Source: Rhizomonospora bruguierae (lineage in GTDB: Bacteria > Actinomycetota > Actinomycetes > Mycobacteriales > Micromonosporaceae). From it: 64,000 nt of DNA. Both the position numbers and the translations under genes were made by a program. The DNA lies in assembly GCF_018397995.1 (NCBI RefSeq), contig NZ_BBQH01000037.1:1-64000 (forward strand), given 5' to 3'. Numbering within the stretch: the first letter of the stretch is position 1; every line of letters starts with the position of its first letter. A model generated the notes under the pieces. That model worked only from the letters and a program-made list of their open reading frames with translations, made no database searches and was not told the DNA's origin. Positions 37,535-39,489 of the stretch are shown here, one piece after another.

Positions 37535-37561
37535 GCCGGGCACGATCACGGCCCGCCCGGC
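37535..37561 (+). terminator. possible terminator after GH53
   Basis: GCCGGGC and GCCCGGC can pair across a 13-base loop, 34 bases after the GH53 stop. The stem is only 7 bp and its end runs into the PhoD remnant, so support is modest. Confidence 0.35.
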
Positions 37562-38346
37562 TGCGCTTCGCGTTCGCCAGCTGCCAGGACTTCCAGGCCG
37601 GCTACTACACCGCGCACCGCCACCTGGCCGCCGAGGACGTCGCCTTCGTGGCGTTCCTGGGCGACTACATCTACGAGAACGGCCCGATCCCGGCCGCGCC
37701 CCGCCAGCACACCGGAACGGGCGAGCCGTACACGCTGGCGGAGTACCGCGACCGGTACGCCCAGTACAAGGCGGACCCCGACCTCCAGGCCGCGCACGCC
37801 GCCGCGCCGTGGGTCGTCACGCTCGACGACCACGAGATCGACAACAACTGGGCAGGCCCGCTGCCACCGGACCCGGCCCGGCAGCCACCGGCGGCGTTCC
37901 GGGCCCGCCGGGCGGCCGCCTTCCAGGCGTACTGTCGTGCTGACCGGGGACCGCCACGCACCTGGGTCTGCGACCTGCGCACCGACTTCGACGACCCGTC
38001 CTCGCCGGTGGTCGGCGCCGAACTCACCGGCATCTCCCTCACCTCGGGCGGCCATCCGGACCCCGCGGCCTTCCACGCCACCTACGACCCGATCATGGCC
38101 GAAAGTCCACACTGGAAGTACGCTGACCTCCAGCGCGGGTACGTGCTCTGCGACGTGACCCCGGAGCGCATGGTCAGCGCACTGCGCGTGGTGGACACGA
38201 TCTGGCTGCCGTCCTCGCCGATCCGCACATCGGCCCGGTTCCTCGTCGAGGCGGGCGTGCCCGGCGTCTCCGTGCTGCGCCAGGAACCCGCCCGCACCCG
38301 TCCGATCGCCACGCCCCAGTACCCGGCGGTCAACGACAAACCGTGA
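37558..38346 (+). pseudogene. PhoD-type alkaline phosphatase with N-terminal and central deletions
   Basis: The reading LRFAFASCQDFQAGYYTAHR, FLGDYIYENGP and VVTLDDHEIDNNWAG matches the metallophosphatase core of PhoD, and CDLRTDFDDPSSPVVGAEL to SPHWKYADLQRGYVLCDVT matches its C-terminal part. The N-terminal Tat signal and Ig-like domain are missing. Between AFQAY and WVCDLRT about 150-200 residues are lost. The junction retains the DNA for VVLTGDRHA, the metal-binding TGDRH motif, but in another frame, and one base has been lost after it. By chance the frame stays open through the scar, so it could pass as an intact gene of about 260 residues, but it lacks essential metal ligands in frame. 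Confidence 0.75.
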
Positions 38347-38384
38347 CTCCCAGCGAACGTCCAGCCCGCGCCGGTAAGGTACCG

Positions 38385-38516
38385 GGCCGAGGGGAGTACC
38401 TCTTCAGGACCGTTCCGGTCAGTACGGGCCGCCCGCGGCCCCCGGGCGGTCGTCCGTGCCGGTGTATCCGGGTGCGGGCGGGGGAGACCTCGAACGGTTC
38501 CGCGCGTTCGAGGAGA
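38385..38516 (+). ncRNA. probable yybP-ykoY (Mn2+-sensing) riboswitch leader of the TerC gene
   Basis: The leader contains GGCCGAGGGGAGTACCTCTTC (conserved GGGGAGTA element near 38391) and, about 85 bases later, CCGGGTGCGGGCGGGGGAGACC (conserved GGGGGAGAC element), the two hallmarks of the yybP-ykoY class. The elements are quoted here as GGGGAGTACC and CGGGGGAGACC. Downstream, CCTCGAACG and CGTTCGAGG form a 9-bp hairpin (38488-38512) next to the GAGGAG ribosome binding site, which could be the expression platform. This class is known to sense manganese and is often found before TerC-family genes. The match is by eye and needs a covariance-model test. Confidence 0.7.
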
Positions 38517-38520
38517 CCCC

Positions 38521-39489
38521 GTGTCCGTAGAGACCATCGCATCGCCAGCGCTGTGGGCCGCCAGCATCGCCGTGCTGCTCGCCCTGCTGGCGGTCGACTT
38601 CGCCGTCACCCGCCGCCCGCACGAGGTCCCGATGCGGGAGGCGGTGGCCTGGAGCGCGTTCTACCTCGCCCTGCCGGCCGTCTTCGGGCTGTTCGTCTGG
38701 AGCCGGTACGGCGGCACGGCCGCGGTCGAGTTCTTCACCGGGTACGTGGTGGAGAAGTCCCTGTCGGTCGACAACCTGTTCGTCTTCATGCTGCTGCTGG
38801 CGGCGTTCGCGGTACCGGCGGCGCTGGCCCAGCGGGTCCTGCTGTACGGCATCGTCGGCGCGCTGGTGCTGCGCGGCGTGTTCATCGCGGTCGGCGCGGC
38901 CGTGCTGAGCGCCGGAACCTGGGCGTTCCTCCTGTTCGGCGCGGTCCTGCTGGGCACCGCCATCAAGATCATGCGGGACGCGCTGCGCGGCGCGGGACAC
39001 CAGGTCGACATCGACCGCCTGCGCGGCGTGCGGTTGCTGCGCCGCCTGGCACCCGTGACCTCGGAGTACCACGGCACGCGGCTGATGATGCGGCAGGCCG
39101 GGCGCCGGGCGTTCACCCCGATGGCGCTGGTCGTCGCGTCCGTGTTCCTCACCGACGTGGTCTTCGCCGTGGACTCGGTCCCGGCCGTCTACGGCGTCAC
39201 CGAGGACCCGTACCTGGTGTTCGCCACCAACGCGTTCGCCCTGATGGGCCTGCGGGCGCTCTACTTCGTCCTGCGCGACGCGCTCACCCGCCTGCGGCAC
39301 CTGAACCATGGACTGGCCGTCATCCTGGGCTTCATCGGGCTCAAGCTCGTGCTGCACTGGGCGCACGGCGTGTGGCCCCCGGTGCCGGATGTGCCCACTT
39401 CGCTGTCGCTGGTGGTCATCGTCGGCACCCTTGCCGCGATCACCGTCACCAGTGCGCTGGCCAACCGCCGCGCCAGAGCAACAAACTAG
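38521..39489 (+). CDS. terC: TerC-family integral membrane protein (probable Mn2+ exporter type)
   Basis: The 322-residue protein has about nine membrane helices and the TerC motifs EKSLSVDNLFVFMLLLAAF and VFLTDVVFAVDSVPAVYGVT, with acidic residues within membrane segments, and FATNAFALMGLRALYF. TerC homologues such as Alx/MeeF/MeeY types are linked to manganese handling and metalation of exported proteins. The predicted yybP-ykoY leader supports a manganese role here. The GTG start is preceded by GAGGAG, which lies within the leader hairpin. A strong terminator follows. Confidence 0.92.
   Translation: MSVETIASPALWAASIAVLLALLAVDFAVTRRPHEVPMREAVAWSAFYLALPAVFGLFVWSRYGGTAAVEFFTGYVVEKSLSVDNLFVFMLLLAAFAVPAALAQRVLLYGIVGALVLRGVFIAVGAAVLSAGTWAFLLFGAVLLGTAIKIMRDALRGAGHQVDIDRLRGVRLLRRLAPVTSEYHGTRLMMRQAGRRAFTPMALVVASVFLTDVVFAVDSVPAVYGVTEDPYLVFATNAFALMGLRALYFVLRDALTRLRHLNHGLAVILGFIGLKLVLHWAHGVWPPVPDVPTSLSLVVIVGTLAAITVTSALANRRARATN

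Follow-up and report, generated by a model that had tools for sequence, protein, structure and literature searches.

The terC leader and its sequence blocks

The terC gene of Rhizomonospora bruguierae located at 38521–39489 (+ strand) in the window, namely, the whole 64,000-nt stretch of contig NZ_BBQH01000037.1 analysed here, raises the question of whether its leader is a manganese riboswitch of the yybP-ykoY class and, if so, why the Rfam model of that class (RF00080) does not recognise it. The gene starts with GTG and codes for a 322-residue protein of the Alx subfamily, as assigned by Pfam (TerC, E 3e-44) and NCBIfam (TIGR03718, R_switched_Alx, 346.6 bits for a cut-off of 246.4). Among its TerC matches, those from Actinoplanes, Nonomuraea and Streptosporangium are equally close, at 70–71%. 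A Shine-Dalgarno sequence, GAGGAG (38510–38515, +), is read 5 nt before the start codon at 38521. Upstream of the leader lies a frame for a PhoD-like phosphatase (37540–38343, stop at 38346, 38 nt before the aptamer), which comprises 268 residues in the scanned stretch with two separate Pfam stretches, and is perhaps a shortened member of its family.

A preliminary description of this DNA had claimed that the leader holds the two conserved blocks of the yybP-ykoY class, and both are indeed present, GGGGAGUA at 38391–38398, as read from the window, and GAGACC at 38484–38489. UCAGUAC at 38419–38425 forms the L3 loop and corresponds to a third block that characterises the class. They belong to an aptamer domain of the yybP-ykoY type without helix P2 (38385–38495, +), delimited by full-length matches to the two covariance models, R1 and R2, described below. 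All features are on the + strand. The 5' strand of P1, GAGG (38389–38392), has its partner at 38488–38491, and that of P1.1, CCUC (38399–38402), at 38480–38483, with 100% of cells paired in both helices (30 sequences for P1). Between the two 5' strands stands the 5' part of L1, GGAGUA (38393–38398). A linker of 5 nt, UUCAG (38403–38407), occupies the place of helix P2 in canonical members, and is followed by the P3 arm (38408–38451), in which P3.1 (38408–38418/38442–38451) and P3.2 (38426–38431/38436–38441) are supported by covariation and flank the L3 loop (38419–38425). The P4 hairpin (38452–38479) precedes the closing stretch 38480–38491, made of the 3' strand of P1.1 (GGGG), the 3' part of L1 (GAGA) and the 3' strand of P1 (CCUC).

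With regard to the start of the RNA, a -10-like hexamer, TAAGGT (38375–38380, +), and a conserved block, CTCCCAGCGAACGTCCAG (38347–38364, +), which may represent a -35 region or a regulator site, precede the aptamer. A CAG..CAG block is present directly 5' of the TANNNT box in 23 of the 30 terC upstream regions compared, and a sigma-70 consensus scan gave no match. Since TANNNT occurs 14–17 nt 5' of GGGGAGTA in all 30 terC leaders, the RNA would start at the aptamer itself, its 5' end probably lying close to the first aptamer base.

Conservation and covariation of the fold

When 121 genomes from the same family were searched for TerC, 120 gave matches; 30 loci, each from a different genome and among them that of the window, were compared. 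In the leaders of the window and its 29 relatives, GGGGAGUA and GAGAC(C/U) are always both present, with their order kept (30/30). In a MAFFT alignment of these 30 leaders, made without knowledge of the structure, 94.1% of the cells of the 31 proposed pairs are standard, 103 cells are doubly changed compared with 26.9 in shuffles, and 18 pairs show both-sided change compared with a shuffled mean of 11.5. Sliding the partners by 1–3 columns lowers the pairing to 40–52%. P1.1 appears in the variants CCUC/GAGG, CCCC/GGGG, CUUC/GAAG, UCUC/GAGA and UUUC/GAAA, with both-sided CG/UA swaps in three of its four pairs.

A larger alignment, A6, consists of 100 matches from 99 loci, 100 of 174 loci (55 from the phylum and 119 from a pattern scan) being submitted; unlike the MAFFT alignment of 30, it was fitted to a covariance model. 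Its cells are paired at 93.8%, with 717 doubly changed against 227.4. All seven pairs of P4 display both-sided changes in A6, and the outer pair of P1 changes from G-C to A-U in a compensatory manner in 29 of the 100 sequences. The AGUA of L1, the CA and C of L3 and the AGA of the 3' side are invariant in these 100 sequences, the fourth position of L3 is free, and the core is near-invariant as GGGGAGUA, UCANNAC and GAGACC (on the 3' side, GAGA in 99–100 and CC in 98–100 of 100). The fold is thus conserved, and the class assignment of the preliminary description is supported by this covariation and by the near-invariant L1/L3 core, together with the neighbouring genes and the cross-matching with RF00080-matched loci presented below. 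The folding energy of the leader (z -1.65, 10 of 200 shuffles as good) is unimpressive and indecisive on its own.

The reference model and the missing helix P2

At gathering scores, Rfam 15 has no match in the whole window, and RF00080 is absent from the Rfam matches of the terC leader up to E 10; the other Rfam 15 families give for this leader two chance-level matches only (E 4.9 and 9.1), far under their cut-offs. RF00080 also finds nothing in the whole genome to which the window belongs, nor in 36 homologous loci (16 searched at E ≤ 10, 20 phylum loci at E ≤ 5). The preliminary description had looked to this very model for a check, and taken alone the outcome would count as a refutation. 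We regard it as an unfair test of this leader because the RF00080 model is blind to the P2-less form. In alignments of seven of the phylum loci that RF00080 does match, the RF00080 consensus shows L1 as it is here, with the P2 helix present and P1 left unpaired. Since its structure includes P2 and leaves P1 unpaired, the failure of the model is probably explained by the absence of P2, in addition to the GC-rich variable arms.

In crystal structures of the class, as described in PMC11087558, helix P2 stands between P1.1 and P3. In the window, the P1.1–P3 linker of 5 nt leaves no P2 helix and no four-way junction. The linker measures 3–9 nt in 53 of the 55 phylum matches of R1; of the other two, L068 has 13 nt without a stable hairpin, and L095, misaligned in the R1 set, carries a hairpin-bearing insert. 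Among 69 loci matched by R2, it measures 2–8 nt in 59 and 10–13 nt in four, while the remaining six have linkers of 15–22 nt with P2 hairpins of -6.5 to -12.8 kcal/mol. Close relatives thus differ in whether they have P2, and the matches of R1 and R2 usually lack it, a share biased upwards because P2-less sequences served to build the two models. The pattern scan is uninformative on the frequency of P2, as the pattern admits short linkers only.

Distribution in Actinomycetota

R1 was built from 30 sequences and R2 from 100, none of the latter being an RF00080-matched locus; the window sequence was included in the building of both, and their E-values are rough owing to a short calibration. The window element is matched over its full length by R1 (86.7 bits, E 6.2e-17 in the whole genome) and by R2 (71.5 bits, E 3.9e-13). 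R1 gives 55 matches in 47 of 396 phylum genomes and is found in 76 of 121 genomes of the same family. R2 is present in at least 93 of the 396 phylum genomes, including 14 of 14 of the same order; this count is a lower bound, as it lacks two genomes (G346 and G367) with loci matched when searched alone. RF00080 reaches E ≤ 0.001 in at least 10 of 296 phylum genomes (11 loci, one above the cut-off). From these two proportions, the reference model appears to miss most Actinomycetota manganese riboswitches.

The pattern scan of named genomes gave at least 119 stretches. By title, 116 of the 119 listed are actinobacterial (Streptomyces, Mycolicibacterium, Nocardioides, Microbacterium, Actinoplanes and others). 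The P2-less form was also noticed in two Chloroflexi MAG contigs and one Acidobacteria MAG (L102, L137 and L209), which could reflect transfer or mis-binning. At E ≤ 0.01, R1 recovers all of the 119 listed stretches within 0.88 Mb, its sole additional match being a second copy in L116. When the 171 kb surrounding the phylum matches were searched at E ≤ 0.05, R1 hit the 55 places anticipated and, beyond these, just three RF00080 loci.

R2 and RF00080 converge on the same loci. Of the 11 RF00080 loci, R2 finds eight at the same places (E ≤ 3.1e-4), gives weak values for two (0.02, partial, and 0.12) and is absent from one; the sole locus above the RF00080 cut-off, L031, is matched by R2 with E 4.8e-7. 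With R1, E ≤ 0.05 is reached at three of the 11. The element is thus homologous to loci matched by RF00080, and judging from its sequence it is very probably a genuine manganese-class riboswitch that would bind Mn2+. A structured leader serving as the target of a protein, in autoregulation or for an RNA-binding regulator, with a likeness to the class due to chance only, could account for the lack of an Rfam match, but this convergence, the three conserved blocks, the fold and the neighbouring genes all agree with the manganese class and make such a reading highly improbable.

Genes preceded by the element

A gene could be read downstream of 53 of the 55 phylum matches of R1, two being cut by contig ends. 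These genes code for 34 TerC proteins, 13 P-type cation ATPases, two M50 peptidases, one Na/Ca exchanger and one PGPGW protein, and two have no Pfam match. The P-type ATPases found after the element presumably belong to another P-type subgroup. Among the named loci, 81 matches in 80 of 119 are followed by TerC (71), by a protein of the L051 type (3) or by something else (7: a Na/Ca exchanger, an E1-E2 ATPase, GreA, an AMP-binding enzyme, two short frames and one contig end), the TerC and L051-like calls resting on profiles built in this analysis. A further 69 loci, a set without G293 (an R2-only match at a contig end), comprise 29 TerC, 21 GDT1, 5 ATPases and 14 others according to home-made profiles; the 21 GDT1 include the copy of the window genome, which was the source of the GDT1 profile. 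Seven of the 14 others are, by Pfam, three Na/Ca exchangers, two M48 peptidases, a DksA-type zinc finger and a DUF4012 protein. Genes running off the contig (L057, L092 and L110) were left out of the gene classification. The GreA, AMP-binding, DUF4012 and DksA-type zinc finger neighbours have no obvious role related to Mn, which counts against the manganese reading.

In the window genome, the element precedes each of the two terC genes as well as one GDT1 gene. The second copy (L043, contig C58:10997–11112) precedes the other terC (336 residues) with a spacer of 102 nt to the start codon. The third (L216, contig C81:30683–30779, - strand) precedes the gene of a 195-residue GDT1 antiporter (PF01169), and its L3, GUCGACAUGCUGG, is nearer to the Rfam consensus. 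MntP, a classic target of the class, is absent from this genome. MneA is a GDT1-type protein, and we take UPF0016 to be the GDT1 family. In Vibrio parahaemolyticus, mneA and terC are described as Mn-induced and located 3' of a yybP-ykoY riboswitch (PMC13274385). From the element, manganese control is predicted for TerC in Streptomyces, Mycolicibacterium and Micromonospora contigs, and for GDT1 and ATPase genes in other relatives.

Some further observations concern these neighbours. In GDT1 copies, L3 tends to be of the GACACACUG type, X. oryzae-like (before GDT1 in L230, L236, L247, L248, L252, L256, L260, L264 and L282), and in TerC copies it is of the UCANNACG type, L. lactis-like. A back-to-back pair is present in Nonomuraea sp. 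SBT364 (L116:1760–1860, - strand, and 1944–2047, + strand) before terC and a 59-residue frame, and in Nonomuraea guangzhouensis (L163) a 79-residue frame follows the element. In L051 (1661–2524) and L053 (585–1460, - strand), the element precedes a family of 288–292 residues without Pfam or NCBIfam match, of which the profile finds three more members among the named contigs. Membrane metalloproteases follow it in L271 and L275 (M48) and in L079 and L088 (M50); these families are not known as classic targets of the yybP-ykoY class.

A probable translational switch and its alternatives

The preliminary description had also proposed a 9-bp hairpin that can hide the ribosome binding site. This hairpin (38488–38513, +) is real: 38488–38496 (CCUCGAACG) pairs perfectly with 38505–38513 (CGUUCGAGG), with -14.8 kcal/mol on its own, and its 3' strand covers the GAGG of GAGGAG. 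The hairpin excludes P1, given that CCUC 38488–38491 pairs either with 38389–38392 in P1 or with 38510–38513 in the Shine-Dalgarno sequence, two mutually exclusive pairings. As the 3' strand of P1 can pair with the 5' end of the aptamer or with the Shine-Dalgarno sequence, a translational ON switch is suggested.

In the 30 sequences, 92.9% of the cells of the sequestering helix are paired and 28 are doubly changed compared with 10.1 in shuffles; doubly changed pairs (4 against 3.2, 188 of 500 shuffles as high) and pair types (8 against 9.4) are not above shuffles. Over 195 loci (195 of 205 rows, after three RF00080 loci were left out), the longest helix between the 3' strand of P1 and the downstream region has a mean of 7.55 bp compared with 5.45 (sd 0.07) in dinucleotide shuffles, and 8 bp are reached in 104 of the 195 loci compared with 16.1 expected. 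In the phylum set, a pairing of at least 6 bp with an SD-like motif is present in 40 of 53 loci, with p ≤ 0.05 in 18 of 53. This conserved alternative pairing, hiding the Shine-Dalgarno sequence, lends support to the translational logic put forward in the preliminary description.

The predicted energies are -85.1 kcal/mol for the sequestered fold and -68.0 kcal/mol for the aptamer-enforced one, metal and tertiary terms being excluded. A preference for the sequestered state without metal would fit a default-OFF switch, and the same gap of about 17 kcal/mol was also counted against the aptamer.

These elements can be arranged in the following scheme. At high free Mn2+, L1 and L3 would dock around an Mn2+ ion held by the adenosine A38421 of UCA, the proposed counterpart of the Mn2+-coordinating adenosine of known members. 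Docking would stabilise P1, in which CCUC 38488–38491 pairs with GAGG 38389–38392, leaving GAGGAG accessible to the ribosome. At low Mn2+, P1 would open, CCUCGAACG would pair with CGUUCGAGG, and the Shine-Dalgarno sequence would be buried. The TerC/Alx protein made under high Mn2+ may then help Mn2+ export or delivery. With a probability of about 0.88, we propose that a manganese riboswitch of the yybP-ykoY class, built on a P2-less three-way junction, occupies the terC leader and turns translation on; homology and anatomy are the grounds on which the identity of the metal, the ON direction and the translational level are inferred.

The level of control has one competitor. Regulation could act through premature transcription termination, for instance Rho-dependent, instead of ribosome access, and the mntP gene of E. 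coli is described as subject to Rho- and riboswitch-dependent regulation (PMC11647493). We consider this rather unlikely for terC: no terminator was found in 38250–38600 in a scan for intrinsic (Rho-independent) sites, and the alternative helix terminates at the GAGG part of GAGGAG, ahead of the start codon, in this leader and likewise in many relatives. With regard to the input, the same fold and switch could mainly respond to alkaline pH, Ca2+ or another divalent ion. The three-way-junction aptamer of Streptococcus pneumoniae mgtA is reported to have a Ca2+ affinity above that for Mn2+ (PMC9495176), alkalisation has been linked to the E. coli mntP riboswitch (PMC9603457), and neighbours such as P-type ATPases and Na/Ca exchangers are also compatible with Ca2+. 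Against this, the CA of L3 and the AGUA of L1 are kept in 100 of 100 sequences, and the leading neighbours are TerC and GDT1, TerC and UPF0016 being listed among Mn exporters (PMC9334652), so that an input other than Mn2+ appears improbable.

Beyond the window, one may go further and suppose that an overlooked, P2-less three-way-junction subclass is the usual manganese riboswitch of Actinomycetota, acting mainly as an anti-anti-Shine-Dalgarno switch over TerC, GDT1 and ATPase genes. This generalisation is tentative, and we give it slightly less than even odds. If it holds, the loss of P2 may have changed metal affinity or selectivity. Compact three-way-junction aptamers offer a way to ask whether Mn2+ selectivity needs the four-way junction.

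Comparison with known systems

The element shares with the yybP-ykoY class (RF00080) the L1 sequence GGGGAGUA, P3 with its L3 loop, P4, the GAGACC of the 3' side, and targets of the TerC, GDT1/MneA and P-type ATPase families. It differs by the absence of the P2 hairpin, replaced by a short linker, by its GC-rich sequence missed by Rfam 15, and by the 5' strand of P1.1, which is YYYC (CCUC, CUUC, UUCC) here, whereas it is GC in RF00080. Considered as features of the class, the L1/L3 metal-site nucleotides with the invariable adenosine, helices P1, P3 and P4, a location before Mn-homeostasis genes and homology to RF00080-matched loci are all found in the leader, and an RF00080 gathering score and the P2 helix with its four-way junction are lacking. 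In E. coli, the alx and mntP leaders exert translational control, as proposed here, and alx codes for a TerC/Alx homologue, but both leaders contain the canonical four-helix aptamer, unlike the terC leader of the window.

Regarding the metal site, Suddala et al. 2019 give L3 as UCA41AU43UC in Lactococcus lactis and ACA48UACU in Xanthomonas oryzae, and describe the binding of Mn2+ by N7 of the invariable adenosine (PMC6754395). The UCAGUAC of the window has the same layout as the L. lactis loop (UCA41AUUC in PMC6754395), and the near-invariant core of the 100 sequences agrees with the metal site given for both species.

Within actinobacteria, the terC gene of Corynebacterium glutamicum (cg2157) is likewise described as preceded by a yybP-ykoY-class leader, which scored 49.13 bits with the Rfam of that time (PMC3890552), whereas the form described here has no RF00080 match. 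The class is also mentioned for Corynebacterium and Streptomyces among the RNAs that RNA-seq revealed there (PMC8164766), and an older survey including it had Mycobacteriaceae and Corynebacteriaceae among its groups (PMC3766115). The novelty lies in the compactness of this form and in how widely the reference model overlooks it, and an earlier report of P2-less forms is conceivable. The closest parallel in architecture is the S. pneumoniae mgtA aptamer, for which a three-way junction is on record (Martin et al. 2019, cited in PMC9495176) and which activates transcription of an ATPase gene; the likeness is drawn from the description in PMC9495176. Since a three-way-junction member has already been reported for pneumococcal mgtA, the element upstream of terC is a variant within a known class.
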